From the NCBI GenBank assembly GCA_017559385.1, contig JAFYSK010000031.1:1-64000 (forward strand): DNA of 64,000 nucleotides, given 5' to 3'. The notes beneath the pieces were generated by a model, which was given only the letters and a program-made list of their open reading frames with translations, searched no databases and was not told the DNA's origin. The stretch comes from Paludibacteraceae bacterium. Its GTDB lineage: Bacteria > Bacteroidota > Bacteroidia > Bacteroidales > Paludibacteraceae. Of this stretch, positions 1-19,245 are shown piece by piece. The position numbers were made by a program, and so were the translations under genes. Position 1 is the stretch's first letter. The number at the start of each line of letters is the position of its first letter.

Positions 1-509
1 GGTATGGGCGCATCGTCGTCCATGAAATATAGTATATCTAAGTCCGTGCCGACAGAGCATACTCGCCCCATGCGCATCATCATTCTATCTTGGAGAATAT
101 CCATTTGCTCGTTTAATTTTGTGTAATCTAACACTTCCGAAGTTTCATCTACCTGTGTCTTGTCCGTATTGTTGTCGTTCCACATAGACAGAGCGTATTC
201 CCAGTTCGTTTTGTAACGCTTGTTTTTACACTCCTCTTTCAAGAAAGCAACGAGGTACTTTTTCTGCTTCGGTGTCAAAATATCTTCTTTTCCTGTATGG
301 AGGAAATATCCAATTTTATCCAAACGGACACAAGTGTGTATTTTCTTTCCATCGGTTTCGTCATCCCATATATGCATGTGTGGAATAGCAAAATCATCAT
401 CACACACAAACACCTTAAATTTCGGTGACTCCTGTTTACCATTTTTCTTAAAGGTGGTGAAATAACCAACCACAGCCATTTTGTACAACATATCGTGACT
501 CTCTTTCAT
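1..509 (-). CDS. Hypothetical protein, 3' end beyond the window
   Basis: Reading the minus strand from the ATG at 509 gives an open frame of 169 codons that runs off the left edge. It begins MKESHDMLYKMAVVGYFTTF. A central stretch reads IPHMHIWDD, then CVRLDKIGYFLH and LTPKQKKYLVAFLKEEC. The His-containing beta segment followed by a helix is reminiscent of small proteins found on Bacteroidales mobile elements, but I do not recognise a named family. It lies 44 bp downstream of the primase gene on the same strand, so it is probably the third gene of that operon. ATGs at 491 and 479 are alternative starts. The function is unknown. Confidence 0.6.
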   Translation of the reverse strand, partial: MKESHDMLYKMAVVGYFTTFKKNGKQESPKFKVFVCDDDFAIPHMHIWDDETDGKKIHTCVRLDKIGYFLHTGKEDILTPKQKKYLVAFLKEECKNKRYKTNWEYALSMWNDNNTDKTQVDETSEVLDYTKLNEQMDILQDRMMMRMGRVCSVGTDLDILYFMDDDAPI

Positions 510-553
510 AAAAGTTTTTTCATTCAATCAAGCTATAGAAAAGGTGTTATCCT

Positions 554-3313
554 TTATACCTTTACATCTCCATCGGTGCAATGGAGAACTGCGGTTGGAA
601 TGGGTATTTTCCAAAAATAACCTAATTTTATTTTTTTCCATTGCGCCATAGTGCCTTGGTATGTGAATGGCAAATCTAACTTATCACGTAGACAGTGGTA
701 TGCAGCGATAGCAGAAGCCCAGTTGTTGGAGATGCGGTCTTCAACAGGAGCACCATTGAGAGCAGCGATGATATCTTGTCGAACGCGGTTGTATGAGTGT
801 GCATATTCAGCCTCCACTAATGCACGATGACTCAATATCTCTAGCGTTAAATGCGTGCATCCTACTTTACGCATATCCTTAAGGCGTTGAAAGTTTGCTT
901 TTGCCTCAGTGCTAAACTCGGATTTATTGTAGCGTAAAAAGATGAAACGAGAAAAGAGAGCGATATCAGCGGTTGCCATCTCTTGACCAGAGAGAATAAT
1001 TCCACTATCTACACGAGTAACCTCTCGTTTTTTATCCTTATCCATGTTCATGCGGTTACGACCTGTACCATCCCAGAGGCCTTTGAGAAACTCGCGTTTA
1101 TCAATGTCGATGGTATTTTTAAACTCATCAATATGCACCAAGGCATTAGCACATTGAGCAACAGCATCAGCTAATGCAGGAAGAGTGGAGTTTTGTATGT
1201 TAGGAGGGGTATTCTCTATGATGAAAAATGACATTAGTGAGTGACCTAATTCAGATTTACCTGATCCCTTGGGACCAAAGATATTTAGGATGGGAAACGA
1301 TTTGGTTTGTGCTGTAACCACATCACGGAATAGGGTTGCAAGCAGAAATGATATGCCGATTTTGGCATTGTCTCCAAAAACCTCTATCATCATCTGCGTG
1401 TATTGACGTAATGTGGTAGCGCCCAAGTTATGGTGAACAAAACTCCGTTCAAACTGATAGAGTGATTTTTGGCGTTCGTAGATAGAAGAGAAAGCTGGTA
1501 AATAGAAATTACCGTCGGGCAAACGTACGATACCAAACTTATCAACAGTTTGCCATGTGCGACCATCAAAAATACCATTGCCAAAAGCATAGAATCCTTG
1601 TGATTGCCAACCGAGTTGGTAAATGGGCTCAGCCTTTTCTGTGACCTTAAAAAGGAATAATTTGAGTTTGGTTAGTTGGTCTTCCTTTGCTAGCCAAACA
1701 TAGTTGCCAATACTTTCTACTTTTTGCTTGAAACGACTGAGACTGACAAGATCTTCCGTTTTGAATTCTACAATGGACTTGTCCCCATCTTCGTTAACCA
1801 CTTCGAAGAGGCGAACAGCGGAGGTACCATCAGAGACATGAAAAAGAGGGTTCATGATGAAATTAGACCAACGCATGATCTTTCCATTTTGACCAATGGA
1901 AATATAGCAATTGCCTTGCGCTTGGAAACCATATTGGTCAAAAGTATTGATGTCTAAATGGTTTTTAGTTTCACTCTTAAGAGCAGCCTCACAACGTGTA
2001 TGCTGAGCAGAGCGAACAGCTTTGTTCCACATTGACTTGCTTTTGATAACATCATTGAGTTGGTTGACATAGTGGTCAATCTCATGAGGTTTCTCCAGGC
2101 GAGCAATGAGTGCAGAAACAGATGAAACAATATCGGGATGCGACATCTCTCCTGCTTGTACAAGCTTCTTTGCATACCAAATAGGAAACTCTTCAATAGG
2201 TAAATCGCTGTATGCAATGAGTGATTTGCAATAGGAATCGGGGTCTTGTTTGCGCGAGTCAGCGCCAAGAGGAATCTCTTTGACAGAGACCTCAAATCCT
2301 AACTCCCAAGCCTGCATGGCGGACTTGATAACCTTCTGTATTCCTGTACCATACGCGTTTCCTGCTTTGGGAGCATCGGCATCTGGAAGGAAGAGGAGTT
2401 TGTGCGCATTGCGTTGGAGCAGATGGAGTTGCTCGTTGGTCCAGTCGGAGCCAAGAGAGGCAACAGCATTCCACACGCCGATAGATTGCAAGCGGAGAAC
2501 ATCTGGAGCACCTTCAACTAGGACGTATGTTTCATCCTTGGCAGCAGCACGAGATGCTTGATCGAGACCAAAGACAGTTTGGCTCTTACGATAAAGGATA
2601 TTAGAGGGTGTGTTGATATATTTGCTCTCCTTAGAATCTTCTGATAGTGTGCGTGCAGTATAGGCAATAATTCGTCCATAGCGGTCGCGAATAGGAATCA
2701 TGATTCGTCCGCGGAAGAAATCGTACGTATTACCTTTGTCGTTGGTTTTGATCAGCCCCATCTGAGAAAGAAGCTTGGTAGAGATAGCACTTTGCTTGGC
2801 AAATGCAAGAAGGTGGTTAAAAGAGTTGTATGCATAGCCAATACCTGCTTCTTCTACGAACTTGTTGCCCCAGCGATTTACGGCGTATTGATATGCAGTT
2901 CGTGACTCTTCGTCTTGATTGTGAAGGTTAGCAGAGAAATAACGTTGCACAGTAGAATAAACAGAAAGCATAGCTTCGCGAAGCTGGTCATTCTCTTTTT
3001 CCTCTTGTGTGCGTACACGTGCGTCTTCCTCTATATAGATATTGAACTTTTTAGCTAGGAATCGGATAGCATCCGGAAAACTGAGACCTTCTTTCTTTTG
3101 GATAAACGCGATGGCGTCACCACCTTCGCCACATCCAAAGCAGTGCCATGTGTTTGCACCAGGGTTGATAATGAGAGAAGCCGTCTTCTCGTTGTGTAAT
3201 GGACAGCAGCATTTGTATTTTCCGCCAGATCTCTCTAGTTTGGCATATAGAGCGATGACATCTTGAATGCTTACTTGCTGGCGAACAGAATCGATGGATT
3301 TAGGTAGTATCAT
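554..3313 (-). CDS. Primase-helicase: CHC2 zinc finger, Toprim and C-terminal P-loop ATPase
   Basis: This 919-aa protein combines a DnaG-type primase front with a ring-ATPase-like back, the architecture of replication proteins of phages, plasmids and integrative elements. A CHC2 zinc finger is visible (Cys37, His40, Cys58, Cys61). It is followed by the RNA-polymerase fold segment FRGRIMIPIRD near residue 205. The Toprim domain has VEGAPD (Glu267) and LPDADAP (Asp311, Asp313). A Walker A motif GPKGSGKS lies at 680-687 and an acidic Walker B LVHIDE at 725-730, resembling DUF927/superfamily-3-like helicase modules. Cellular DnaG lacks this ATPase, so this is not the housekeeping primase. It sits 57 bp after a 75-aa gene and before a partial gene on the same strand. 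The array of repeats upstream (3.79-4.33 kb) could be its origin; that link is inference. Confidence 0.85.
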   Translation of the reverse strand: MILPKSIDSVRQQVSIQDVIALYAKLERSGGKYKCCCPLHNEKTASLIINPGANTWHCFGCGEGGDAIAFIQKKEGLSFPDAIRFLAKKFNIYIEEDARVRTQEEKENDQLREAMLSVYSTVQRYFSANLHNQDEESRTAYQYAVNRWGNKFVEEAGIGYAYNSFNHLLAFAKQSAISTKLLSQMGLIKTNDKGNTYDFFRGRIMIPIRDRYGRIIAYTARTLSEDSKESKYINTPSNILYRKSQTVFGLDQASRAAAKDETYVLVEGAPDVLRLQSIGVWNAVASLGSDWTNEQLHLLQRNAHKLLFLPDADAPKAGNAYGTGIQKVIKSAMQAWELGFEVSVKEIPLGADSRKQDPDSYCKSLIAYSDLPIEEFPIWYAKKLVQAGEMSHPDIVSSVSALIARLEKPHEIDHYVNQLNDVIKSKSMWNKAVRSAQHTRCEAALKSETKNHLDINTFDQYGFQAQGNCYISIGQNGKIMRWSNFIMNPLFHVSDGTSAVRLFEVVNEDGDKSIVEFKTEDLVSLSRFKQKVESIGNYVWLAKEDQLTKLKLFLFKVTEKAEPIYQLGWQSQGFYAFGNGIFDGRTWQTVDKFGIVRLPDGNFYLPAFSSIYERQKSLYQFERSFVHHNLGATTLRQYTQMMIEVFGDNAKIGISFLLATLFRDVVTAQTKSFPILNIFGPKGSGKSELGHSLMSFFIIENTPPNIQNSTLPALADAVAQCANALVHIDEFKNTIDIDKREFLKGLWDGTGRNRMNMDKDKKREVTRVDSGIILSGQEMATADIALFSRFIFLRYNKSEFSTEAKANFQRLKDMRKVGCTHLTLEILSHRALVEAEYAHSYNRVRQDIIAALNGAPVEDRISNNWASAIAAYHCLRDKLDLPFTYQGTMAQWKKIKLGYFWKIPIPTAVLHCTDGDVKV

Positions 3314-3370
3314 ATTATTTTAGGATTGTAAGGCGTTAATAAAGAGTTGGAACTTGTCCAACTCAATGAA

Positions 3371-3598
3371 TTAGATATAAAGACTGGCGTGTTTTATTTT
3401 ATGGTTTCGGGTGGCTTCCTTGTAGAAACGTGTCATAATCTCCGAAACAACCTCTTGTTCCAGTTTGTTCATGTTGTCGTTGTCGCACTTGTAATAAAAT
3501 GTGGAGTTGCTCCAACCTGTGCGATTCATAACTTGGCGCTTGAACGCTTGTCTGCGTTTGTAGCCTAATGCAAGATAAAAGAGTTTAAAGCTTATCAT
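3371..3598 (-). CDS. Small basic protein, first gene of the primase operon
   Basis: This is a 75-aa basic protein with a helical N-terminus (FKLFYLALGYKRRQAFKRQV), then MNRTGWSNSTFYYKCDND and a helix EQEVVSEIMTRFYKEA. The phrase TGWSNSTFYYK looks like a helix-turn-helix recognition region. A DNA-binding regulator or replication accessory protein is possible but not shown. Three things support a real gene: a TACCTTTG -7 element at 3636-3643 about 38 bp before the ATG, the same strand as the primase, and a 57-bp gap to it. No named family was recognised. Confidence 0.55.
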   Translation of the reverse strand: MISFKLFYLALGYKRRQAFKRQVMNRTGWSNSTFYYKCDNDNMNKLEQEVVSEIMTRFYKEATRNHKIKHASLYI

Positions 3599-3635
3599 AT
3601 GTGTATTATTTTAGTTTGCGTTTTGAAAGACCGTG

Positions 3636-3643
3636 CAAAGGTA
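3636..3643 (-). promoter_or_regulatory. Bacteroidetes -7 promoter element for the 75-aa/primase operon
   Basis: The minus strand reads TACCTTTG, the Bacteroidetes -7 element. It places the transcription start near 3629, about 31 nt before the ATG at 3598. The expected TTTG -33 element is weak here (TTTTAG), so the promoter may depend on an activator. Confidence 0.5.
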
Positions 3644-3789
3644 GGACAAAACTCCTAAAAACTAAAAGACAAAATTTTAGGGGGAAATTAAGACACTATA
3701 ATAAGTATTTTATAACTGAAAAAACAGAGAAATATATGTATTGATACTGTGGAATACACTGAATATCACGCATTTATGATTTAGCGGTC

Positions 3790-4330
3790 AAACTAGTCAA
3801 AGATAGTCATTTTTTGATGATCAAAGTCGAAAGATTTTTCTGTTATGTGATAGAAATATCATTTTTGAATGAAACGAATAAGTGTAACTGGCAGAATATG
3901 AAGATATTATAGGTTTGTAATTATAACTTATCAACACTAGTCACAACTCTTCATTTTTTGATGCTGAAGTCGAAAAGTTTTTTTGTGTTTTTTTATAGCA
4001 TGACTTATTGTCTGATAAGAGAGTAGAAGTGCAAGCCTCAGATTATCAGATTATTATCAACAAGTAATTACACCAATTACATATCTTCGTTTTTTGAAGC
4101 CGAAGTCGTGAAAAAAATACAGATTGTGGAAAAAGTCACAAAAGTCACAGGCGTGCTTTTTTGACCATTGAAGTAGTAGTAGTTTTAGTGAATAAGTAAT
4201 ATACACTAATATACACTAATATACATTATGCAATTTTAGAATATCCAAGTCGAAAAAATCTAACACTTCTTAACATATCTAACACTTCTAACACTTTGTA
4301 ATTTTTAGTTGTCGAAGTCGAAAATAAAAA
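3790..4330. repeat. Array of about 70-bp modules with conserved core and module-specific short tandem repeats
   Basis: Six degenerate copies of a core resembling TTTTTTGA-N6/8-AAGTCGAAAA occur in the same orientation. The AAGTCG-like parts begin at 3824, 3967, 4103, 4171 (diverged, AAGTAG), 4247 and 4315. The spacings are 143, 136, 68, 76 and 68 bp, close to one or two times 70. In several copies the T-run and the TCGAAAA part can pair as a small hairpin. Most cores are preceded by their own short direct repeats: AAGTCACA twice near 4135-4150, ATACACTAAT three times at 4201-4225, and TAACACTTCT-like units at 4261-4295. No ORF spans the region. An iteron-type origin or an operator array for the adjacent primase operon is the likeliest reading. 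Confidence 0.6.
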
Positions 4331-4347
4331 TAGTTAGTGCTCAAACA

Positions 4348-4375
4348 TTCGGCAATATTTTGAATTATTGCCGAA
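4348..4375. promoter_or_regulatory. Palindrome CGGCAA-N12-TTGCCG, matching the AbiEi operator
   Basis: A perfect 10-bp inverted repeat, TTCGGCAATA (4348-4357) and TATTGCCGAA (4366-4375), has the geometry CGGCAA-N12-TTGCCG. The same half-sites with the same spacing occur at 9095-9132 over the AbiEi promoter. No clear promoter overlaps this copy. It may be a second binding site for the AbiEi-like antitoxin. Confidence 0.55.
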
Positions 4376-4424
4376 AAATAGAAAATAAGATGTGATAGAA
4401 AGGATGCAAAAATGAGTCAAAAAG

Positions 4425-4507
4425 CGCATTTTTTGCATTATAATTGGGGTAAAGTGCCTCACTGAGGGGGGTAGAGGCAAATATAAATCACTATTTTGCA
4501 CTTTTAA
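4425..4507. repeat. 83-bp direct repeat, left copy
   Basis: This is identical to 8907-8989 at 80 of 83 positions and in the same orientation. The repeat contains a GCCTC...GAGGC hairpin with an internal CCTCACTGAGG palindrome and a G-run. The minus strand of both copies also carries TATATTTG, a -7-like element (4478-4485 here). The two copies bracket exactly the ATPase and TOTE-like genes. Confidence 0.85.
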
Positions 4508-4547
4508 CGTATTAAATAGTGAGTAACGAGTAAGAAACACACTGTAA

Positions 4548-7418
4548 TCAGAATAGCAAACTAATGACTTGTTCGGCAATGGATGCGTCGGTTAGGCGCA
4601 TAGAGAAATTGTGTTTGGTATTGGCACCAAGATAATTGATGTCACCATACCACAAGATATGGCGATCGATGATGGCACATTGCAAGTATATAGATTCTCG
4701 TTTGGTTATAGGCAGTTCATCTAATGGTGAAACTGAAAATAGATCTAACTGATTTTCGGTTTCAGCAGTGATGATATCTTGCGTGAAGAGTTGAATACTA
4801 CAGCCGTTGCGTTGTTGATCTTGAAGCGCATAGAGGCAATCTAATGCAGCAGTAGATTGAATAGAGGGTGTGTAAATAAGAATAGATTGCTTGGCATTGC
4901 GCAAATCGCGTAGGAATAGTGGGGCAAAATCAATGCCACTGAAGATGGTGTTGTGATGCAGCGATGTAGTGTCGAGTTGGTCACTTGAAATAGAAGATTG
5001 CAATTGGTAACCATTACCAGCATAACCTTTGAGCCGTCTGCGATACATCTTTTCGCACAAAGGTACATGGATGTCAATATAATCATAAACTATCACATCA
5101 TCTTTGCCATCGTATTCACGATGCAAGCGACCTGTGTATTGAGCCACTAAGCCTTTCCATGCAATGGGCAAAGTAAGGAATAGGGTATCTAATCGAGGAA
5201 AATCAAATCCTTCTCCGATGTATTTGCCCGTAGCAATAATCACCAAACTTTGCTCGGACGGGATACTACGTAAGGTCTCCATTGTAAGGCGTTTCTGCTT
5301 AGTAGAATCCGAACCCGTTAGACAAATGACATTCTGGCAGTGAGGTGCTAGCATTTGTGCTAAGACGTTGACGTGAGCAGTGAGTTGCGTAAGGATAATA
5401 GGTGTGCGTCCCTGCTGTATTGCTTGGCACACATCTGAGATTATCATACGATTTCGAAGTTCGTTATTGGCTATTTCGTGGATTTGCTGCGTGTAAGTAA
5501 GTGGCTCGGCGGAGATGTTCTTAAAGGCAGTGAAACGAGGACGAAGTTCGCGCGTGAAGGAATGATGCTGAGCACTCTTGTTGGCCGTATAACGTATAGG
5601 TCCACATTGCATGAAGATAATAGGTTGGTGACCGTCTTTGCGTATCGGGGTAGCTGTTAAGCCGTAAATGTATTGGGCATTAGCGAAGCGTAGTACACGT
5701 TCAAACTGAATAGCGGATACGTGGTGACACTCATCCATAATAACCATACCATAGTTGCGAACAAATTCCTTAACATCGTCGTTATTGATACACGATTGGA
5801 TGACAACAATGTCAATGATATTGCTTAGGTGATTGCCTGATGAATCGAGGGTACCTATAGGAGAGAATGTTTTTTTTCTTCCTCTTCTTGTAGGCGTTTG
5901 AGGAGCTTCAAATTCGATTGATAGGAAACGCGAAAGGGTGTTTTTCCATTGTTCAAGAAGCGCCTTAGTATGGACAAGAATAAGCGTATTGACTTGTCTG
6001 GATGCTATCAATGCAGCAGCTGTTACTGTCTTGCCAAAAGCAGTGTTGGCAGATAAGGTGCCATTGTTTTTGAGGGTAAGTTTCGATAGAGCAAGTTGCT
6101 GTTCATCACGTAGCTGTCCATTGAAAGATACATGTATTGATTGACCATGATAGGTTTGGTCCTCAAAGCGATATGCGATAAAGTTGCTATCAAGGAGTTG
6201 AGTGACAGCATCTTCGCAGCCACGTGGTAAAACTAAGAAATCTTCGCTAAGTTCAGCGCAACAGATAATCCTCGGTGTGGAGAAAGTAGAAAAACGCATC
6301 GCTTGCTTGGTGTAGAATTCGGGATTTTTGAACGAAGCAATGCGCTTGAGGTGATTAATGACTTTGGCTGATAAACCACTGAGAGGAATATATAAACCAT
6401 TTGCTTGAACGATGGTCAGTTGAGTGGGGAAATCCTGCTGGGTAAGCGGTGAGGATTTGGGCAGGAGCCAAGGTCGCTCTTCGGTAGATGAAGCGAGTTC
6501 GCCTAAATCTTTAGTAGTGTGAGTTTGAAGGATGGTGTCCAATTGCTCAGTAGAAATAGTTGGAATATTTCGCAGAAAATCCCATTGGTTAGGATAGGGA
6601 GAAAAGTTGTCATCCACAAAGAGACTATTTCCTTGTTTGCGTGCTTGACCTTGCAGAGGTAAGGCAACAAGGTTACCTAATCCACCTTCGGGCAATTGAT
6701 CTTGGTTGGGGAAGAAACGATCATATGACTTAAAGGAGATACGTCCGTTTCTATTGGTAGCTTCCGTAAGAATAGTAAAGCCTAGTTTTCGTGCAAGACG
6801 ACTTGGAGTTGGCTGTTCAAAAAACAACCATACGTGTGCACCATTGCCCGAGCGAGAACGCTCGACGGCTGGGGTTAGTCCCCAATCTCGACAAACAGAG
6901 ACAAATGTTTGTACGTCAGATTGATAGCCGTGCTCAGAATTCTTGTCATCAAAATCAGCACAAAGGAAATAACATGTGTTATCTTCTAGTATAGGGTATA
7001 ATCCTATAACATCTCGTGCATGTTCGTCCTTCCCCTCGAGATGTTTGTAGATGGCGTCATTATCTAATGGCGCGAATTGCCTATTTGGGCAGTCGGCACA
7101 TTTATGTTTCTTCTTATCACAAAAAGTAGGATGCCATTCGTTTTGACAGACGGGTTGGTAGCCACTCTTGTTGGTGCTTTTGCTGTACCATCGTCGGGCA
7201 AAGACATCTGTCCGTCCACGGAATCGAGATTGAAATAGTTGAATTTTCTCCTCAACTGACAATGAAGGTGCAAGGTGCGAGTTGGGCTCGTCTTGTGTTG
7301 GCTTGGCGGGCGTGTGTTGGGCTAATTGCAAACGCAGTTGACGATTCTCTTCTGACAATTGTTCTACTCTCAGAAGCAGTGCATCGCGTTCGCGCAGCAG
7401 ATCGTCGTAGGTTTGCAT
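4548..7418 (-). CDS. TOTE-like conflict protein: AEP primase domain, SF2 helicase, PLD-like C-terminus
   Basis: This 956-aa multidomain protein reads as a member of the TOTE-type conflict systems, in which an archaeo-eukaryotic primase (AEP) domain is joined to a helicase and a nuclease. Residues 1-35 are a coiled coil. Cys91, Cys100, Cys107 and Cys110 look like a zinc knuckle. The AEP domain shows the metal-binding pair in FLCADFDD (Asp155, Asp157) and SRSGNGAHVW with His195. The SF2 helicase has ANTAFGKT (457-464), MDECHH (561-566), GLTATP (586-591) and QYTGRLHR (760-767). Residues 840-956 resemble a phospholipase-D-like domain (AIIDRHILWYGD), but a canonical HxK motif is not evident. The gene starts 6 bp after the ATPase gene, so the two are co-transcribed. 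A role in defence against phage or plasmid DNA is inferred from family and context. A replication role for a mobile element is the alternative. Confidence 0.85.
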   Translation of the reverse strand: MQTYDDLLRERDALLLRVEQLSEENRQLRLQLAQHTPAKPTQDEPNSHLAPSLSVEEKIQLFQSRFRGRTDVFARRWYSKSTNKSGYQPVCQNEWHPTFCDKKKHKCADCPNRQFAPLDNDAIYKHLEGKDEHARDVIGLYPILEDNTCYFLCADFDDKNSEHGYQSDVQTFVSVCRDWGLTPAVERSRSGNGAHVWLFFEQPTPSRLARKLGFTILTEATNRNGRISFKSYDRFFPNQDQLPEGGLGNLVALPLQGQARKQGNSLFVDDNFSPYPNQWDFLRNIPTISTEQLDTILQTHTTKDLGELASSTEERPWLLPKSSPLTQQDFPTQLTIVQANGLYIPLSGLSAKVINHLKRIASFKNPEFYTKQAMRFSTFSTPRIICCAELSEDFLVLPRGCEDAVTQLLDSNFIAYRFEDQTYHGQSIHVSFNGQLRDEQQLALSKLTLKNNGTLSANTAFGKTVTAAALIASRQVNTLILVHTKALLEQWKNTLSRFLSIEFEAPQTPTRRGRKKTFSPIGTLDSSGNHLSNIIDIVVIQSCINNDDVKEFVRNYGMVIMDECHHVSAIQFERVLRFANAQYIYGLTATPIRKDGHQPIIFMQCGPIRYTANKSAQHHSFTRELRPRFTAFKNISAEPLTYTQQIHEIANNELRNRMIISDVCQAIQQGRTPIILTQLTAHVNVLAQMLAPHCQNVICLTGSDSTKQKRLTMETLRSIPSEQSLVIIATGKYIGEGFDFPRLDTLFLTLPIAWKGLVAQYTGRLHREYDGKDDVIVYDYIDIHVPLCEKMYRRRLKGYAGNGYQLQSSISSDQLDTTSLHHNTIFSGIDFAPLFLRDLRNAKQSILIYTPSIQSTAALDCLYALQDQQRNGCSIQLFTQDIITAETENQLDLFSVSPLDELPITKRESIYLQCAIIDRHILWYGDINYLGANTKHNFSMRLTDASIAEQVISLLF

Positions 7419-7424
7419 GGGGAA

Positions 7425-8693
7425 TCACTTATTCACTAACCACTTAGTTGCAGGTAATACTTTTATAGTATATCCATCCACTTCTATAGTCTCCTCTTGT
7501 GAGAATGTAAGAATAGTTAAATCTTGGCAGTGAAATTTACGTGCACCTTGTAGAAGGGAGTTAATTTCTCGTTTACGAGTTTTTTCTTCGGTCATATCAT
7601 AGCAAACCTGATAAATGCTTTCCACTATGCCACCTTTTGCTATAAGAAAATCCACTTCGAAACTACGATCGCGATAATAAAACACATCAGCATAAGTAAT
7701 GCTTGCTCTGTGTAATAATTCTATAAAGACAGCATTTTCTAAGCGCCATCCCATATTTTGTGTAGTGAAAGTATTTGTTCGGAATGATAAAAACGCAGGA
7801 TCTACTACATAAAGTTTTTCACCGCGTATACGTTCACGACTCTTAAAAGAGAATTTGCGGACAGACTGCAATAAAAATGCCTCTTGTAAGTAATGACAAT
7901 AAGTTTCTATAGTATGATCAGTTACTCCAAAGAGTTCGCCCAATGCAGAAGCATTGTACTCTTGTGCAAAATTGTCCATCATGTATGTAGCCAAGCGTTG
8001 AAGAACTTCTGGGTATCTAACTTTGAAACGTTTTGTGATGTCCCTTCTTATGATTGCCTCCAATAAACTCATGATATAGTCTTGCTTATTGCTTTCTGTT
8101 AGCAACTCGGGGAAACCTCCTTGTACAAGATAATTATTAAGGGTAACCTTAAGTAACGCTTGAGCTTTGGTGGTTAAAGAAGTGGTATCAACTTGTTTGT
8201 ATTGGGCATACTCCTTGAACGAGAAAGGGAAGAGTGTAATTTTGTGGTGACGACCAGTTAGATGGGTGGTCAATTCATTTGAGAGTAATTTAGCATTACT
8301 TCCCGTTACAAGTAGGTGTATGTTTTGTCGAAGCAAACGGTTGACGAAAAGTGGCCAACCATCTACATTTTGTATCTCGTCTAAAAATAAATAATCAAAT
8401 TCTCCATATACAATATATAGAGCTTCTAGAAGATTGTTAAGATCTTCGCGCTTGAGATTTTCTAAACGTTCATCGTCAAAATTGACATAGGCTGCTTTTA
8501 CTCCAGCATCATGCAGTACTTTCCTACATAAAGTAGATTTTCCGCTTCGGCGAACTCCGATCACTACTTGCGCTAATTTACTGTGTAAGTCTATTTGTGA
8601 TTCTTGTTCACGGGTACATAGACCATCAAAACTCTCTTGTAAAAATTCTTCGCGGAGTTCTGCTATTGTAGGCAATAATTCTTGTACAGTCAT
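7425..8693 (-). CDS. AAA_14/DUF4143 family ATPase
   Basis: This 422-aa P-loop ATPase belongs to the common AAA_14 plus DUF4143 family of unknown physiological role. VIGVRRSGKSTLCRK near residue 45 is the Walker A, DYLFLDEIQNVDGWP the Walker B region and LLVTGSNAKLL the sensor. The C-terminal half has a winged-helix-like segment and ENAVFIELLHR...YYRDRSFEVDFLI, typical of DUF4143. Start choice: the open frame extends to 8789, but a strong promoter (-7 at 8715-8722, -33 at 8742-8745) lies inside that extension. The ATG at 8693, giving MTVQELLPTIAELREE, is therefore the real start. It is the first gene of the operon with the TOTE-like gene. Members of this family are usually solitary, so this coupling is of interest. 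Confidence 0.85.
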   Translation of the reverse strand: MTVQELLPTIAELREEFLQESFDGLCTREQESQIDLHSKLAQVVIGVRRSGKSTLCRKVLHDAGVKAAYVNFDDERLENLKREDLNNLLEALYIVYGEFDYLFLDEIQNVDGWPLFVNRLLRQNIHLLVTGSNAKLLSNELTTHLTGRHHKITLFPFSFKEYAQYKQVDTTSLTTKAQALLKVTLNNYLVQGGFPELLTESNKQDYIMSLLEAIIRRDITKRFKVRYPEVLQRLATYMMDNFAQEYNASALGELFGVTDHTIETYCHYLQEAFLLQSVRKFSFKSRERIRGEKLYVVDPAFLSFRTNTFTTQNMGWRLENAVFIELLHRASITYADVFYYRDRSFEVDFLIAKGGIVESIYQVCYDMTEEKTRKREINSLLQGARKFHCQDLTILTFSQEETIEVDGYTIKVLPATKWLVNK

Positions 8694-8714
8694 AATGAGT
8701 AAAAATTTAGGCTG

Positions 8715-8745
8715 CAAAGGTAGTAAAAATACTTCAATTGACCAA
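8715..8745 (-). promoter_or_regulatory. Promoter of the ATPase/TOTE operon
   Basis: On the minus strand TTTG (8745-8742), a 19-bp spacer and TACCTTTG (8722-8715) match the Bacteroidetes consensus exactly. Transcription would start near 8708, leaving a leader of about 14 nt before the ATG at 8693. Confidence 0.75.
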
Positions 8746-8764
8746 ATAATTATCGGGTAAACTG

Positions 8765-8834
8765 CGATATTTTGCAAAAAAACACACATTTAACTACGAT
8801 ATATTACATACTTTACTGTGCTTATTTACGATAT
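8765..8834. promoter_or_regulatory. Three direct repeats (CGATAT core) at exact 32-bp spacing
   Basis: CGATAT occurs at 8765, 8797 and 8829, exactly 32 bp apart (about three helical turns). The flanks are similar: CTGCGATATTTTGC, CTACGATATATTAC and TTACGATATTTTGC. The first copy begins about 20 bp upstream of the -33 element of the ATPase/TOTE promoter. The same-face arrangement suggests cooperative binding of a regulator. Confidence 0.55.
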
Positions 8835-8906
8835 TTTGCGCAAAAAAAATATCCAAGTTGCAACAGATTAACACTCGCCATAGGAATGTGTATTTGGGTT
8901 AAAAAA

Positions 8907-8989
8907 CGCAATTTTTGCATTATAATTGGGGTAAAGTGCCTCAGTGAGGGGGGGAGAGGCAAATATAAATCACTATTTTGCACTTTTAA
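8907..8989. repeat. 83-bp direct repeat, right copy
   Basis: This partners 4425-4507, with 3 mismatches in 83 bp and the same orientation. Just upstream at 8848-8877 there is also a diverged copy of the module core seen at 4240-4268 (AATATCCAAGT, then TAACACT). The similarity between the two flanks therefore extends patchily beyond the 83 bp. Confidence 0.85.
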
Positions 8990-9094
8990 TTGAGTACGAT
9001 CGCCTCATTAGGCACAGGTGATGATTGCAATTATAATCGTCTTTTACTCCAATTAACTATGGTCTCGTCTGAACAATTTTAAATAAAACGCAAT

Positions 9095-9132
9095 AATTTT
9101 TCGGCAAAATTTGGAAATATTGCCGAAAAATT
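9095..9132 (+). promoter_or_regulatory. Operator palindrome over the AbiEi promoter
   Basis: A perfect 13-bp inverted repeat, AATTTTTCGGCAA (9095-9107) and TTGCCGAAAAATT (9120-9132), straddles the -33 element. AbiEi antitoxins are known to repress their own promoters through inverted repeats, so this is the likely autoregulatory operator. Confidence 0.7.
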
Positions 9133-9141
9133 GTACCTTTG
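9110..9141 (+). promoter_or_regulatory. Promoter of the AbiE-like pair
   Basis: TTTG (9110-9113), a 20-bp spacer and TACCTTTG (9134-9141) match the consensus. They lie within the open frame that starts at 9111, which shows that the antitoxin starts further on at 9159. Confidence 0.75.
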
Positions 9142-9158
9142 CAGAAAATTTCAATTTC

Positions 9159-9866
9159 ATGACATATAAAGAAAATATTTTAACGTTTGCACGCGAACAT
9201 GAAATGTTTAGCATTGCTGATGCTCAAAAGAACATTGCACCAGATATTCCTATTGAGCAGATGACTTGGTATCTTAATCAAATGGTTAAGGCAAAGACGC
9301 TTGCACGTATAGGTAGTGGAACCTTTACTATTAATACCAAATTCGATTTTACTGATAGATTGGAAAATGTTGCTGTAGAGATTTATGATTCATTGCATGC
9401 AACATTGCCATTTGCACGCATGTGTATATATGATAGTTCATATATCTCACCTCTACAACACCATTTAGCTGGTAACAATATAATTTACGTAGAAGTAGAG
9501 CGTAATGCACTTGAAAGCGTATTCTTTATGTTAAAGGATGCGTATAAGAATGTTTATCTTAAGCCTACAAAAGAGACTATTTACCAATATGTTGATAACG
9601 AGGTTCAGTCAATATTTGTTAAACCACTAATTTCTGAAGCTCCAATAAAAATGGTAGATAGTTATCCTATTCCAACAATTGAAAAATTGTTAGTAGATTT
9701 ATACAAGGATAAAGATTTCTACATGTATCAAGGTGCAGAGTATGATTATATATTTGAGAATGCGCTTACGCTATATAATGTAAATACAACAAAACTTCTT
9801 CGATACGCATCGCGTAGAGGGATAAAAAATGAAATCCAAAACCAATTGAAAAAATATGATAAGTAA
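9159..9866 (+). CDS. AbiEi-like antitoxin (DUF6577-type), winged-helix transcriptional regulator
   Basis: This 235-aa protein has the AbiEi-like layout. An N-terminal winged-helix region (residues about 1-60; MTYKENILTFAREHEMF, then WYLNQMVKAKTLARIGSG) is followed by an antitoxin domain ending in RRGIKNEIQNQL. In type IV AbiE systems the antitoxin represses the operon and counteracts the nucleotidyltransferase toxin without direct contact. The start at 9159 is chosen because the promoter (9110-9141) overlaps the earlier ATG at 9111. The stop codon overlaps the start of the toxin gene by 11 bp, as expected for a coupled pair. The family assignment rests on layout and partner; the DUF6577 name is from memory. 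Confidence 0.75.
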   Translation: MTYKENILTFAREHEMFSIADAQKNIAPDIPIEQMTWYLNQMVKAKTLARIGSGTFTINTKFDFTDRLENVAVEIYDSLHATLPFARMCIYDSSYISPLQHHLAGNNIIYVEVERNALESVFFMLKDAYKNVYLKPTKETIYQYVDNEVQSIFVKPLISEAPIKMVDSYPIPTIEKLLVDLYKDKDFYMYQGAEYDYIFENALTLYNVNTTKLLRYASRRGIKNEIQNQLKKYDK

Positions 9867-10380
9867 GGAATGTTTTACGAATGAGTGGATCAACAAAGTA
9901 TCCGCTGATTTGAAGTATAATGACAAGAACCTTATTGAAAAGGTTGTTCGTGCATTATCGTTGCTTGAGATGTTGGTAGCAGCAGGCTGTCCTTTGGTCT
10001 TTAAAGGAGGTACCGCTCTTATGTTGATTCTTTCTGGCAAGTTGCACCGATTATCTATAGATATTGATATTATTTGTCCGCCAGGAACAGATATAGAACA
10101 ATATCTTGCGAAGTTTGAGGAATATGGTTTCTCTTCTAAAGAGTTGGTTGAACGCAAGCAACGCGATACTAATATTCCAAAAAGTCATTCTAAGTTATTT
10201 TATCAAATAGCCTATTGCAATAGCGATAAGCCAAGTTATATATTACTGGATGTTTTATACGAAGATGTACACTACGAACAGACAAATGAAGTGGATATTG
10301 CCTCACCTTTTTTGAAGTTAGAAGGGAAACCTCTTAAAGTTCGCGTGCCATCTGCAGAAGATATACAATTCATTATATAA
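9856..10380 (+). pseudogene. AbiEii-like nucleotidyltransferase toxin, C-terminally truncated
   Basis: The 174-aa product keeps the nucleotidyltransferase core: FKGGTALMLIL (Gly51-Gly52) and SIDIDI with Asp69 and Asp71, the metal-binding pair, then a possible third acid in YILLDVLYED. AbiEii family members are normally close to 270-300 aa. Here the frame stops right after VPSAEDIQFII, where the family usually continues into a helical C-terminal domain. No continuation is visible in the 110 bp before the next terminator. It is probably an inactivated or minimal toxin. A genuine short form cannot be excluded. Confidence 0.65.
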
Positions 10381-10416
10381 AATCAAACACTCTATATTGC
10401 ACAACATTACAAACAT

Positions 10417-10460
10417 CAAAAAAAACACCCCCGGCGTATTAAAACGCGGAGGTGTTTTTT
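10417..10460. terminator. Bidirectional terminator
   Basis: AACACC...GGCG, loop, CGC...GGTGTT forms a strong stem, preceded by an A-run and followed by a T-run. It separates the plus-strand AbiE pair from the minus-strand VWA gene and can serve both. Confidence 0.75.
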
Positions 10461-10492
10461 CGGGAAACAGTACAAATCCCTAAACCACAATA

Positions 10493-11221
10493 TTATTTCT
10501 TTTCGTCACGCTTGAAGAAACTGCGTTTGGTCTGCATCTGGCGATATCTGCTTTTGCGCTCGGTCTCTGGGGTATCAATACACATGCACATATCCACATC
10601 TTCCATTGCCGCACAGAACATAGTGTGTCCATCTCTGTAACTTTCAAAAGCCTTCTTAGCACCATGATTGGAAAACTCCCAAGCCTGTGCATTTTGCACA
10701 TCGATATTCAGTTCTAAACACACTTTGGTGACATCTTGGTTGGCTCCCATAAAGGTGAAGTTCCAGCCTTCTTGCTCTTTGAGTCGGCCAATGAGTTGAT
10801 GAATCTGGTGATAAGTAAACTCTTGTGAAGCATTCTCATAGCCATCCGTGATGATAGTAACAGATGCCACTGCTCGTTCGTGCTTCTTCACCTCCTTCTC
10901 AAGGCGTGTGAGCGCCATACCGATAGCATCTAGCAATGGGGTGCAGGCACAAGGAACAAATTCTTCCTTCTTCATGAGTTGAATTTGTGCAGCAGGCACC
11001 ATGTCAAGGATATAAGGCATAGACTCGGTGTCAAAGAGCATGAGCGAAGCGAAATGCTCCTGAGTGTCGGCATGCTTCTCGGCTGTAGTTTTGATGCCAC
11101 TAAGAACTTCGTTGCAACCTGTAAAGGCAGCTTGGCGGATCTCATCCATAGAACCGCTCTTGTCAAGGATAATAAGGTTGTAGATTCGTGTTTTGGTTGT
11201 AGGTTTTTGATTTTCTTTCAT
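10493..11221 (-). CDS. VWA-domain protein, cytosolic
   Basis: This 242-aa single von Willebrand factor A domain protein has no signal peptide. The metal-ion-dependent adhesion site is complete: DKSGS (Asp20, Ser22, Ser24), Thr94 in CACTPLLDAI and Asp126 in ITDGYENA. Stand-alone VWA proteins of this kind are often scaffolds in stress-response or metal-chelation complexes, but nothing in the neighbourhood fixes a partner. The C-terminus is basic and Cys/Met-rich (MFCAAMEDVDMCMCID). A small membrane-protein ORF lies 93 bp upstream behind a good promoter and may be in the same transcript. Confidence 0.8.
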   Translation of the reverse strand: MKENQKPTTKTRIYNLIILDKSGSMDEIRQAAFTGCNEVLSGIKTTAEKHADTQEHFASLMLFDTESMPYILDMVPAAQIQLMKKEEFVPCACTPLLDAIGMALTRLEKEVKKHERAVASVTIITDGYENASQEFTYHQIHQLIGRLKEQEGWNFTFMGANQDVTKVCLELNIDVQNAQAWEFSNHGAKKAFESYRDGHTMFCAAMEDVDMCMCIDTPETERKSRYRQMQTKRSFFKRDEKK

Positions 11222-11314
11222 AATTGTTTAGGATTTAAAAAGTTTATATTAGGTTAAATGGATAGTATTGTCACTCTTTTTTTCGTTCAATAACTCAAGA
11301 GAAGAGTGTATGAT

Positions 11315-11497
11315 TTAGAATGGTAGGTAACAATCATCATCGATGTCAGAGGAAGTAGTCGTGTCAGTTGATTTGTCGGTATTTCTACCGATTTCATCGG
11401 AGTTTTGGCATAAAACTAGTTTGGTTAGACACAAGAAAATAGGCATTGATAATATATCAATAACCAGGGCAGATAACAAAGTGGGATGGTAAATCAT
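11315..11497 (-). CDS. Possible 60-aa membrane protein
   Basis: The frame encodes one hydrophobic segment (LLSALVIDILSMPIFLCLTK) followed by a polar, Thr/Asp-rich tail. It begins about 40 nt after a transcription start predicted from a consensus promoter (11545-11575), which is the main reason to believe it. There is no recognised family. Alternatively the promoter serves the VWA gene and this stretch is leader RNA. Confidence 0.4.
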   Translation of the reverse strand: MIYHPTLLSALVIDILSMPIFLCLTKLVLCQNSDEIGRNTDKSTDTTTSSDIDDDCYLPF

Positions 11498-11544
11498 TGT
11501 CGTTAAAGTTTAGGGGGTAATATGCGTTTTTTTGATTTCGAATG

Positions 11545-11575
11545 CAAAGATACAATGTTTTTTAGTAATACCAAA
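11545..11575 (-). promoter_or_regulatory. Promoter upstream of the 60-aa ORF and VWA gene
   Basis: The minus strand shows TTTG (11575-11572), a 19-bp spacer and TATCTTTG (11552-11545). Confidence 0.7.
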
Positions 11576-11665
11576 TATTTTTGTGTGTTTTTTACACATA
11601 TTTTTTAGATTATTATAGGGTAATAATAATTTTTAAAAAAAATTTGCTTGTGGCTATATAAGAAC

Positions 11666-11695
11666 AATCGCCCGATGCCTTTGCATCGAGCGATT
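11666..11695 (-). terminator. Strong hairpin after serS
   Basis: AATCGCCCGATGC and GCATCGAGCGATT pair over 13 positions with one mismatch and a 4-nt loop. The U-tract is weak. It lies about 190 bp after the serS stop and is the best candidate terminator for that operon. The rest of 11498-11880 holds short repeats such as a duplicated GATTCCCGTTACCC near 11796-11822 and no gene. Confidence 0.5.
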
Positions 11696-11881
11696 GATAT
11701 CATTACTTACCGCCTTGGGCGGGTTGAAGAAGTTTTATAAGTTTTAGAAGTTTTAAGGGTTTCGTGCAGCGTTGCTGCTTGTTTCAAAGAGTCGATTCCC
11801 GTTACCCGATTCCCGTTACCCGATAACCGATAACCTATAACCTATAGCCCGAAGGCGTCCATAGCTCGCTCTGCGAGCGTC

Positions 11882-13234
11882 CTACTTGATCATATCGCAG
11901 CCCATGTATGGTTGAAGTGCTGCAGGGATGCGGATGCCTTCAGGTGTTTGGTTATTCTCCAAGAGTGCAGCCACAATACGTGGAAGAGCCAAGGCAGAAC
12001 CATTGAGGGTGTGCGCCAAGGTCACTTTCTTATCCTCTGCGCGGCGATAGCGGCAGTGGAGGCGGTTAGCTTGGTAGGTATCGAAGTTAGATGTAGAAGA
12101 AACCTCTAGCCAGCGGTGTTGTGCCTCGGAGTAAACCTCGAAGTCGTAGCAGAGTGCTGCAGTGAAGGACATATCGCCACCGCTAAGGCGTAGGATACGA
12201 TATGGGAGTTCGAGTTTTTGGAGAAGACCCTCTACGTGCTCAAGCATCTCCTTGTGACTAGCGTCAGAGTGTTCTGGTGTATCGATGCGAACGATTTCTA
12301 CTTTGCTAAACTCGTGTAGTCGGTTGAGTCCGCGTACATCCTTGCCATAGGAACCTGCCTCACGGCGGAAGCATTGGGTATATGCGCAGTTTTTGATAGG
12401 TAGTTGAGCCTCGTCGAGGATGACATCGCGGTAGATATTGGTGACAGGTACCTCAGCAGTTGGTATGAGGTATAGATTGTCGAGTTGGCAGTGGTACATT
12501 TGTCCCTCTTTGTCAGGCAATTGTCCAGTGCCATAGCCACTGGCTTCGTTGACAACGGTAGGTGGCATGATTTCGGTGTAACCAGCAGCGGCAGCCTCAG
12601 CAAGGAAGAAGTTGATGAGTGCGCGTTGCAGGCGTGCGCCTAAACCTACATATACAGGGAAGCCTGCGCCAGAGATTTTGACGCCAAGGTCAAAATCGAT
12701 GAGGTTATATTTCTTGGCCAAATCCCAGTGTGGGAGTTTGTCATTGTTGGCTAGTTGTTCGTCAGTAGCGGTATCCCAGTCGCGTATTGCGATGGTACCA
12801 TCAGCTGCGAGTTTGTCGATCATAGGTTGGTTGGCCCAGTTACCGATTTTCACGACGAGGTTATCCTCAGCGCTGCGTCCTTCAGGTACGAGGTCGTACG
12901 GTACATTAGGGATGGTGAGAAGTAGTGCGGTGAGTGCTTCTTCAGCTTTAGCCATCTCAGCATCGAGTTGAGGGATAGATTGTTTGAGTGCACCTGTTTG
13001 TGCTTTGGCAGCCTCTGCTTCTCCGCGTTTGCCTTGCGCCATGAGTGCACCGATAGACTTAGAGATGCGGTTCATCTCGGCAGAAGCGTTGTCTTTCTTT
13101 TGTTGAGCAGCTTTACGCTCAGCGTCTAGAGCGATTACTTGCTCGATAATCTCCGCTGCAGCAGCGAAGTGTTTCTTCTCCAAGCCAGCGATGATAGCTG
13201 CCTTGTTGTCATATATTTGTTTGAGTGTAAGCAT
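11882..13234 (-). CDS. serS: Serine-tRNA ligase
   Basis: This class II synthetase charges tRNA-Ser. The 450-aa protein has the N-terminal helical tRNA-binding arm (residues about 30-110, with LDAERKAAQQKKD). Motif 2 is seen in CFRREAGSYGKDVRGLNRLH and motif 3 in NGSALALPRIVAALLENNQ. The start is taken at MLTLKQIYDNKA (13234), the family-typical N-terminus; the open frame runs upstream to 13273 without a likely start. It is the third gene after rplU and rpmA, 223 bp behind a terminator-like hairpin that may be read through. Confidence 0.95.
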   Translation of the reverse strand: MLTLKQIYDNKAAIIAGLEKKHFAAAAEIIEQVIALDAERKAAQQKKDNASAEMNRISKSIGALMAQGKRGEAEAAKAQTGALKQSIPQLDAEMAKAEEALTALLLTIPNVPYDLVPEGRSAEDNLVVKIGNWANQPMIDKLAADGTIAIRDWDTATDEQLANNDKLPHWDLAKKYNLIDFDLGVKISGAGFPVYVGLGARLQRALINFFLAEAAAAGYTEIMPPTVVNEASGYGTGQLPDKEGQMYHCQLDNLYLIPTAEVPVTNIYRDVILDEAQLPIKNCAYTQCFRREAGSYGKDVRGLNRLHEFSKVEIVRIDTPEHSDASHKEMLEHVEGLLQKLELPYRILRLSGGDMSFTAALCYDFEVYSEAQHRWLEVSSTSNFDTYQANRLHCRYRRAEDKKVTLAHTLNGSALALPRIVAALLENNQTPEGIRIPAALQPYMGCDMIK

Positions 13235-13299
13235 ACAAATGTATTGTTCAGCGCCCGCAAGCGGGCTGTTCAAGATTGTTCTGGGTTGTTAGGCGCCTT

Positions 13300-13350
13300 C
13301 TAGTATATCTAGTATATCTAGTATATCTAGTCAAACTAGTATATCTAGTT
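13300..13350. repeat. 9-bp minisatellite (TAGTATATC)
   Basis: Four to five tandem copies of TAGTATATC, interrupted once by TAGTCAAAC, lie between GGCGCC palindromes in the spacer upstream of serS. The copy number could vary between strains. Confidence 0.8.
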
Positions 13351-13363
13351 AACCGGCGCCTTT

Positions 13364-13412
13364 CAAAAAACAAATTTCTCCTGCCAACTGCCGAGGCAAT
13401 CGGTAGGAGAAA
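13364..13412 (-). terminator. Terminator after rpmA
   Basis: On the minus strand TTTCTCCTACC pairs with GGCAGGAGAAA around a 16-nt loop, followed by TTTGTTTTTT. This would end the rplU-rpmA transcript. Confidence 0.7.
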
Positions 13413-13457
13413 CTTATTTGCCATTCCTCTTGCCGAGACTATGGGTATAATCCCAAA

Positions 13458-13721
13458 TTATGCCTCTGCGATAGGTTGGATAGATACGTAAGACTTGTTG
13501 TTACGTTTCTTTTGGAAAGTAACGATACCATCGGTCAACGCAAATAGAGTGTGGTCGCTACCCATACCCATGTTCTCACCTGGGTTGTGTACTGTACCAC
13601 GTTGGCGTACGATGATGTTACCTGCTTTAGCGAATTGTCCACCAAAGATTTTGATACCTAAGCGTTTGCTTTCTGATTCGCGGCCGTTCTTGGAACTACC
13701 GACACCTTTCTTGTGTGCCAT
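13458..13721 (-). CDS. rpmA: 50S ribosomal protein L27
   Basis: This is an 87-aa L27, complete and of usual length. It starts [20 protein letters not shown], giving the conserved glycine-rich N-terminus that reaches the peptidyl-transferase centre. [20 protein letters not shown] follows. It is 35 bp after rplU in the usual L21-L27 pair. Confidence 0.97.
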
Positions 13722-13756
13722 ACTTCTTTAAAACTTGGTTTTTTAAGGGTTACACA

Positions 13757-14074
13757 TTAAGCCAACACGATCTCTTTAACTACGAGATTGGTCAAATCTT
13801 GACGATGGCCGTTCAACTTACGATAGCCTTTGCGACGTTTTTTGTGGAAAACGAGAACTTTCTCGCCACGGCACTCGTTGTCGAGTACTTCGCAAATTAC
13901 TTTAGCGCCCTCTACGAGAGGAGCACCTACTTTTACCTCACCGTTGTTGTCAACGAGGAGCACTTTCTCGAATGTTACCTCAGCGCCTTTCTCAGCGTCC
14001 ATGCGGTTAACAAAGAGTTTTTTGCCAGCTTCCACACGGTATTGGAAACCTTGCATTTCTACAATTGCGTACAT
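13757..14074 (-). CDS. rplU: 50S ribosomal protein L21
   Basis: This is a 105-aa L21 starting [19 protein letters not shown] and containing the family signature [14 protein letters not shown] near the C-terminus. It is first in the rplU-rpmA pair. A consensus promoter at 14302-14333 implies a leader of about 220 nt, long enough for autoregulation, although I cannot identify a known leader structure. Confidence 0.97.
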
Positions 14075-14301
14075 TGTTCAAATGTTTTTAAATTGTTACA
14101 TCGGCAGGGCGAGATACTAAGTCGTCGACGTTGGCATGCGGAGATCGTTCAGACGCCCATCGGGCTGTTCAAAAGTTCAGTCGCGTAAACGCTTGTTCAG
14201 CAGTAACCCCTGAACCCCTAAACTTCTAAACTCCTAAACTTTCCTGCATCATCCGTCCCCTCAGTAGCGCTACTTGAGAGCCCTAAACGCGAAAAATCGC
14301 G

Positions 14302-14333
14302 CAAAGGTACTGCTTTTTTTTGAAATGACCAAA
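14302..14333 (-). promoter_or_regulatory. rplU-rpmA promoter
   Basis: The minus strand shows TTTG (14333-14330), a 20-bp spacer and TACCTTTG (14309-14302). Confidence 0.75.
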
Positions 14334-14439
14334 TTATTGGTGTTTTTTTTGTAAAAAAAGTCTTGGGAATCGGGTTATAGGCGAGGAGGCGAGGAGGTGA
14401 TAAGGCGATAAGGCTATGAGGTGATAAGGTTATGAGGTG

Positions 14440-14635
14440 ATCAGTGAAAATCCGTGCTATCAGTGGGAACTATTAACCGTTAGAACCCTTAAAACTTTTA
14501 AAACACTTTTAACACGCCGAGGTTCCACAGATTTCATGGATATACACGAACGTATCTGAGAATCAGTGAAAATCAGTGCTATCAGTGGGAAATGTTAACC
14601 CTTAAAACCTTTAAAACTCTTTTAACACGCCGACA
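14440..14635. repeat. Two copies of a dispersed about 70-bp spacer repeat
   Basis: GTGAAAATCCGTGCTATCAG (from about 14443) and GTGAAAATCAGTGCTATCAG (from about 14565) each continue with GTGGGAA, a TTAACC...CTTAAAAC stretch and AACACGCCGA. A third relative lies inverted at 33452-33475. Upstream at 14375-14440 are GAGGCGAGGAGG and GGTGATAAGG short repeats. No gene is seen in 14334-14645. Confidence 0.7.
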
Positions 14636-14645
14636 GGCGAGGAGG

Positions 14646-15446: not shown

Positions 15447-15565
15447 AATTTCGTCCTAATTAATGATGTGACAAAATCAGTAATTGATATATTTGGTCAC
15501 AAATACCGACATTTTATCCCTATATTTGAGTTTTCTACAAAAAGTATGCCGTATAATCACAAAAG

Positions 15566-15597
15566 TTTGAGGATGTCGTAAAATGGCAGTAATTTTG
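15566..15597 (+). promoter_or_regulatory. Promoter of the SGNH hydrolase gene
   Basis: TTTG (15566-15569), a 20-bp spacer and TAATTTTG (15590-15597), with a leader of about 56 nt. Confidence 0.65.
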
Positions 15598-15659
15598 CAG
15601 CGAAAACAGCAAATAATTATATCAAGTCAGTATAAACCAAAAAACAGACAAACTAGATT

Positions 15660-16343: not shown

Positions 16344-16344
16344 A

Positions 16345-17454: not shown

Positions 17455-17523
17455 GGGAGATGGGTGCAGGGTTTTAGTCGCACGGGGTGCTGTTTTAGGG
17501 GTTTTAGGGGAGATTAGAAGATA

Positions 17524-17560
17524 AAAAAAGGTGTACCCAATGGCACACCTTGTTTTTTTG
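17524..17560 (-). terminator. rpsO terminator
   Basis: AAGGTGT and ACACCTT form a stem around a 10-nt loop, flanked by A- and T-runs, directly after the rpsO stop. It could work in both directions. Confidence 0.7.
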
Positions 17561-17573
17561 CATTGGGTGGTAA

Positions 17574-17843: not shown

Positions 17844-17939
17844 AATTGTATTAAAAATTAATAAGTTAAACGATGATGACCTCGCATGATTTTCCATCGA
17901 AACGATGTCACATTTATTTGGTTTTACAGAAACCGGCTG

Positions 17940-19242: not shown

Positions 19243-19245
19243 TGA

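Follow-up and report, generated by a model that had tools for sequence, protein, structure and literature searches.

We analysed a window of 64 kb, that is, the whole stretch from position 1 to 64,000 of contig JAFYSK010000031.1 from a Paludibacteraceae bacterium, in which an operon coding for a TOTE-type primase-helicase and an AAA_14/DUF4143 ATPase is bracketed by two direct repeats. Comparisons with related genomes suggest that this repeat, hereafter R, marks the edge of exchangeable defence cargo. R would be a portable non-coding element of ~85-100 bp, usually located directly 3' of a defence operon, and the exchangeable cassette would take the form promoter, gene or genes, and R, within integrative elements and islands of a gut Bacteroidales genus. 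The reading which we tentatively favour, while stopping short of calling it probable, is that R is a terminator-like cargo-end module, situated at the seam where swappable defence cargo meets its surroundings. The core of the locus is arranged as follows:

4413..4507, minus strand (the cargo strand): R1, 3' of the TOTE gene across a gap of 40 bp
4548..7418, minus strand: gene for the TOTE-type protein of 956 aa, with an AEP primase domain, a superfamily 2 (SF2) helicase and a C-terminal PLD-like domain
7425..8693, minus strand: gene for the AAA_14/DUF4143 ATPase of 422 aa (PADLOC PDC-S01, 1.5e-100)
8895..8989, minus strand: R2, flanked by the ATPase upstream region on one side and the divergently oriented AbiE genes on the other

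As described in the initial annotation of this DNA, 83-bp repeats at 4425-4507 and 8907-8989 lie in the same orientation and are identical at 80 of 83 positions; the similarity can be extended to 95 bp (4413-4507 and 8895-8989), with 89/95 positions identical. Both copies also contain the predicted GCCTC...GAGGC motif and, on the minus strand, the conserved sequence TATATTTG. No third copy occurs in the 64-kb window or in the source genome (G000; 2.0 Mb, 85% complete), where the other matches are of 24 nt or shorter. The repeat is rare, and with only two copies in its own genome it can be ruled out as a common genome-wide element.

When 178 genomes of the genus (all genomes used here are drafts) were searched with blastn, six strong copies were recovered, namely R1, R2, one in genome G028, and three of 81-82% identity in G013, G108 and G119. 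The cargo at the latter three is AbiL, consisting of an AAA_21 ATPase and an RloB protein (PADLOC AbiLi/AbiLii; 2.8e-66 and 1.4e-16 respectively in G013). Following the trail of AbiLii uncovered R in G128 and diverged versions in G010 and G091 (nhmmer 4e-11 and 2.5e-11), in both of which AbiLii was likewise called. A sequence-only model gave 10 strong copies (matches at E 2.3e-5 or better) in 9 of the 178 genomes, with G018 newly added. The G018 copy, which sits 6-14 nt after a DUF4143 ATPase gene, is by its alignment a true R relative: its local score against the G091 copy is 37, the best of 200 shuffles reaching 18.5. All 10 strong copies adjoin defence or candidate-defence genes; six are 3' of AbiL, two 3' of TOTE and one 3' of a DUF4143 ATPase, and R2 lies between AbiE and the ATPase. 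Furthermore, R accompanies every one of the six AbiLii homologues that are at least 61% identical (those of G108, G119 and G128 are 99-100% identical to that of G013), and four at 28-35% identity are without an R match.

The model matched 33 of the 178 genomes at E 0.01 or better. Among the matches listed, 28 weaker ones (E 6e-4 to 0.01) were set aside, seven after reading (L223, L224, L225, L227, L230, L233 and L238), where no defence link was seen, and 21 on score alone. A search of 214 genomes of the order, the source genome included, used a model in which one row of eight, that of G018, was misoriented (as it was in the profile behind the R edge positions), and found only the two copies of the window convincing. 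Matches at E 0.001 or better occur in five of the 213 other genomes. The strongest, in G534 (E 2.3e-6, better than the G018 copy), falls within a coding sequence that by eye resembles AbiEii and was taken as a chance match; the other four were set aside on reading. Also rejected were 33-nt blastn matches in G353 and G354, from another genus of the same family (E 9e-5 and 7e-5), where the R profile gives E ~1. A virus-borne R was not supported, as specific R patterns gave nothing in viral_contigs and a shorter pattern hit four entries, of which the best R-profile match has E 0.045; no match covering 80% of R was found in plasmids and phages.

Evidence that R lies at a boundary comes from two pairwise comparisons. 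In G091 and G010, AbiL together with R is 86% alike over 1984 columns within different surroundings, and the homology stops 5-9 nt inside the outer end of R as drawn. In the comparison of the window with G028 the homology stops at 8902, a few bases from the left edge of R2, so that the edge of R2 is the point where the two genomes part. In the only two pairs that allowed such a comparison, homology thus ends at the outer edge of R. In terms of placement, R fills the gap between the converging stop codons of AbiLii and a helix-turn-helix (HTH) gene in G013, and between AbiLii and the stop of the next gene in G010. It overlaps the AbiLii stop codon by 5-18 nt, and the distance from TOTE to R is 40 nt. 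The window primase (see below) shares ~69% identity with its 1062-aa counterpart in the AbiL elements, and four AbiL-less elements with the same primase/HTH backbone (L118, L090, L120 and L121) have no R after the HTH gene, which rules out R as a part of that backbone; L119 was left out, its contig ending ~70 bp after the HTH gene. R is 81% identical between R1 and the G013 copy, across unrelated cargo, which would require transfer of R or its common descent. Between G013 and G091 the likeness of R (76%) exceeds that of the AbiL coding DNA (63-64%).

The wider locus has the following other features:

554..3313, minus strand: gene for a DnaG-type primase of 919 aa, taken as mobile-element backbone
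4160..4412, no strand assigned: non-coding tail on the left side of R1, whose alignment to G028 is heavily gapped (~50-75% in bins)
7456..8704, minus strand: block of 1249 bp without any difference to G028, corresponding nearly to the ATPase open reading frame (ORF)
8694..8902, minus strand: ATPase upstream region, 97% identical to G028 up to the R2 edge
9159..9866, plus strand: AbiEi-type gene (DUF6577; PADLOC AbiEi 6.6e-73)
9856..10380, plus strand: short AbiEii-type gene, covering positions 1-166 of a 344-position model

G028 has the same ATPase-TOTE-R stretch, situated beside a tRNA-Lys gene and what remains (62 residues) of a tyrosine integrase. The whole of this integrase (475 aa, Phage_integrase) occurs beside tRNA-Lys and an ArdA gene on contig C63 of the source genome, and the window locus is probably part of an integrative element at tRNA-Lys; contigs C63 and C39 of this genome share no end overlap, and a second tRNA-Lys end was not found in window 1-20000. 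Relatives of the window primase are present in 37 of the 178 genomes, and the five loci read look like mobile elements. Host genes are reached by ~11.8 kb with a seryl-tRNA synthetase (named by eye), whose DNA matches 161 of the 178 genomes. Two G028 contigs share an exact 141-bp end overlap, which would put the seryl-tRNA synthetase on the far side of the G028 cassette, as in the window. We infer that the window and G028 represent the same locus, with G028 being a deletion derivative that retains the cargo and one repeat and from which the right repeat is missing. Beyond 8902 the window continues with R2 and AbiE, and G028 with a DUF4143-like C-terminal fragment, a further DUF4143-type ATPase, which is split across the two contigs, and a DUF3987 gene. 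In the non-coding tail left of R1, GAAGTCG is found three times (3966, 4102 and 4314), out of 13 occurrences in the 64 kb on both strands.

The difference-free block at 7456-8704 is flanked by TOTE, ~95% identical to G028, and by the ATPase upstream region, 97% identical, and its identity points to a recent exchange of the ATPase ORF. This 100.0% identity to another species may instead reflect an assembly artefact. The ATPase ORF also appears to move independently, because similar DUF4143 genes have other 3' flanks: those of G101, G104 and G133 match the G018 gene at 91-96% identity through the last 262-280 bp, and their flanks right after the stop differ from G018, the flanks of G101 and G104 being the same.

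Under the favoured reading, R would end transcription of the cargo, as might be expected from a T-run kept in 7 of the 8 copies of a correctly oriented alignment, and would thereby keep cargo and backbone from reading into each other. Cargo exchange would proceed by recombination ending at or near R. The R-cargo-R arrangement would then comprise the cassette ATPase-TOTE-R1 beside R2, the latter serving as the terminus of a different cassette or as its target; that is, the arrangement would arise because two seams stand side by side. The bracket in the window would be two neighbouring seams and no proof of a loop-out between R1 and R2, and the seams may be made by ordinary homologous recombination, by selection for a terminator or by an R-recognising recombinase. 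The initial annotation had proposed a cassette that is gained, lost or looped out by recombination between the repeats. The part of this proposal that holds is that R is rare, accompanies defence cargo and marks edges, and that a different cargo, AbiL, adjoins the same repeat. Among the 178 genus genomes, however, no second R-cargo-R arrangement was found, nor any genome in which these flanks enclose one R and nothing else, and looping-out between R1 and R2 is unproven because no such empty one-repeat site was found.

Several observations weigh against the seam reading as well. Neither an excised form nor an empty one-repeat site was seen among the genomes searched. The contexts of R reduce to about four independent ones, because the six AbiL copies form one lineage. 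R2 is placed between two gene starts and is 3' of no gene. With 6 differences over 95 sites, R1 and R2 represent no fresh duplication; their identity (94%) is about the same as that of R1 to the G028 copy (94%). Each R edge rests on one genome pair, all of them drafts. In L121 other ORFs lie beyond the HTH gene with no R there. Between G091 and G010, R is 76% and the AbiL coding DNA 85-87% identical, and R is therefore not always the better conserved part. A simple scan marked no terminator in R1 and R2, and a common RNA fold was not recovered from the aligned copies (consensus -0.61 kcal/mol; of 17 pairs, 6 are disrupted in one or more of the sequences), by which R as a conserved structured RNA is ruled out, although some individual copies do fold better than their shuffles; at the gathering score no Rfam family matches R.

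Some of the same evidence can be read as simple inheritance, with R being a shared 3' regulatory or terminator element passed down with old cargo lineages, homology ending where selection ends, and recombination being unrelated to R. The T-run, the overlap with the AbiLii stop and the placement in G010 and G013, where stop codons converge on R from both sides, all agree with this account, which we nonetheless regard as rather unlikely, given that R is 81% identical between unrelated cargos and that R2 lies between two gene starts with its edge at the junction between two genomes. It is improbable, to our mind, that R is instead a site-specific recombination site, with promoter-gene-R units moving in an integron-like fashion through a recombinase acting in trans and R-cargo-R representing two adjacent cassettes. 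Genes and R do behave as a portable unit in different surroundings (G091 and G010), and R consists of a C-rich centre (G-rich in G018) with a ~30-nt direct repeat on either side, the two repeats being identical over 31 nt in G010; in the eight copies tested this direct-repeat signal is reached by 0 to 8 of 300 shuffles. The tyrosine recombinase of the tRNA-Lys element has a sub-threshold likeness to XerA and integron models; yet its scores are low (72/220 bits for XerA and 40/265 bits for the integron integrase TIGR02249), no attC-like Rfam match was obtained, only the source genome has two copies, and there is no array. We have little faith in the more specific proposal that R could be the site used for recombination by an integron-like system not yet described, which would shuffle multi-gene anti-phage cassettes in Bacteroidales integrative elements by acting on a direct-repeat/centre/direct-repeat site.

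An insertion origin, in which R would be a miniature element akin to miniature inverted-repeat transposable elements that landed in defence islands and was then carried along, accounts for the small size, the few copies and the different contexts, and for the strong self-complementarity of the G010 copy (reached by 0 of 300 shuffles). We consider it improbable too, since such self-complementarity is clearly above shuffles in only this one of six copies tested (for the other five the observed value is attained by 46 to 251 of 300 shuffles), no target duplication was seen by eye, and all 10 strong copies, in about four independent contexts, are at defence genes. Very unlikely, in our estimate, is a small RNA encoded by R that regulates the neighbouring defence genes, composed on the minus strand of TATATTTG, which we take to be a -7 box from its presumed consensus, ~55 nt and a terminator. 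TATATTTG is present in 4 of the 8 aligned copies, and folding z-scores on the cargo strand are low for R1 (-3.5), R2 (-2.9), G028 (-4.6), G010 (-4.6) and G128 (-2.6); against this, G091, G010 and G018 lack the box and G013 has an altered one, the copies do not share one fold, the z-scores of G091 and G013 are -1.3 and -1.5, and the other strand of G010 scores -4.7.

Returning to R as a cargo-end module, it recalls in its layout the integron gene cassette, which consists of a gene and a 3' attC site. Both have one or more genes followed by a ~90-bp element and are portable as a unit; R differs in that it accompanies multi-gene cargo with its own upstream region and forms no array. No integron integrase was found above cut-off, the single recombinase tested being that of C63, and the absence of an attC match on R refers to Rfam at the gathering score, with no dedicated attC model applied. 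An attL/attR-type cassette likewise finds no counterpart, the R copies of the 178 genomes including no empty single-repeat site between the same flanks. The defence islands and hotspots of integrative elements and phage satellites are similar in their variable content, with TOTE, AbiE, AbiL and DUF4143 genes near integrase, ArdA or primase and tRNA genes; what sets the present case apart is that cargos unrelated to one another end, on their 3' side, in a conserved non-coding element of ~90 bp. For the question of how mobile elements swap their defence genes, R offers a defined site at which cargo exchange could be examined, and R might serve as a sequence tag for new defence genes, as attC does for integron cassettes.

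With regard to the cargo itself, the two-gene layout noted initially was borne out, the ATPase and TOTE genes being on one strand and 6 bp apart. The TOTE gene product matches AEP-TOTE (PF22548) at 5.7e-96 (321 bits against a gathering score of 27), as well as ResIII/Helicase_C, with a PLDc_2 match below its cut-off; the ATPase matches AAA_14 (116.6 bits) and DUF4143 (78.9 bits), both above gathering scores. The ORF finder permits an ATPase start at 8789, and the ATG at 8693 agrees with the homologues. The TOTE-type protein resembles known AEP-TOTE members in joining an AEP domain, an SF2 helicase and a C-terminal PLD-like domain. Of the motifs expected of such proteins, the AEP/helicase ones, DFDD (DFDN in G027), SG.GAHVW, AFGKT and DECHH, are kept in 8 of the 8 TOTE members of the genus. 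The motif of a catalytic PLD nuclease (HxK...D) departs from the pattern: its HxK is missing in 7 of the 7 readable members (that of G027, the eighth, being unreadable), where QCAIID, RCAIID or RTTIVD replaces HxKxxxxD. The ATPase has the domains of the AAA_14/DUF4143 ATPases listed as candidates in PADLOC (PDC-S01) and differs by its location 6 bp upstream of a TOTE gene.

The association of these two genes, remarked on at the outset as an unfamiliar pairing, proved not to be general. TOTE homologues occur in 8 of the 178 genomes and the ATPase family (counted at E 1e-30 or better) in 107; close homologues of both are adjacent in G000 and G028, and in the other six of the eight TOTE genomes they are not. 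In two of these six, TOTE is preceded on its own strand by a remoter AAA_14-type ATPase, directly in G027 and with two genes between in G111, which would speak against pure coincidence. TOTE neighbourhoods have the look of defence islands: AbiE-type gene pairs are beside or near TOTE in three of the eight genomes (G000; G137, L074; G002, L076), in varied order and orientation, and GmrSD-type genes are beside or near it in G067. TOTE and the ATPase would hence be separate defence genes brought together and not an obligate pair, and we caution that their adjacency is no ground for reading them as a two-component system. A literature search for TOTE conflict system terms found nothing, most subscription papers being outside its reach, and a search on DUF4143 yielded work on Thermus Argonaute only. 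No TOTE was found in viral_contigs. Among the 15 phage records listed of 728, the match covers 36-44% of TOTE, and by name these are mostly helicases; of 224 plasmid records, 36 reach 80% coverage of TOTE or more, and identity is 42-44% in the 15 listed.

Some further observations were made on the window and the elements compared with it. The AbiEii ORF of the window (9856-10404) matches only the N-terminal half of its model, and the 38 bp that end it (10367-10404) recur at 97% in G028 beside the seryl-tRNA synthetase. In G091 (L213, 3310-5940) AbiL and R form a ~2.6-kb unit between two tRNA-Asp 3' ends, with no other ORF of at least 90 aa. The G082 element (L121, 12805-19572) contains, past the HTH gene, an ORF for an AAA-type ATPase and a pair that looks like Cas9/Cas1 by eye. 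In G013 and G108 a GNAT-like gene (by eye) lies between two ~145-bp direct repeats which are ~81-88% alike; repeats of this type are located at L024 15948-16091 and 16839-16980, L025 4452-4593 and 5342-5585, and L026 2991-3234. G119 has one such ~145-bp repeat and no GNAT-like gene there, and the flank beyond differs, so that this is no proven empty site. Lastly, the window includes a 76-bp direct repeat, 100% identical between its two copies (30876-30951 and 31422-31497), which are 546 bp apart.

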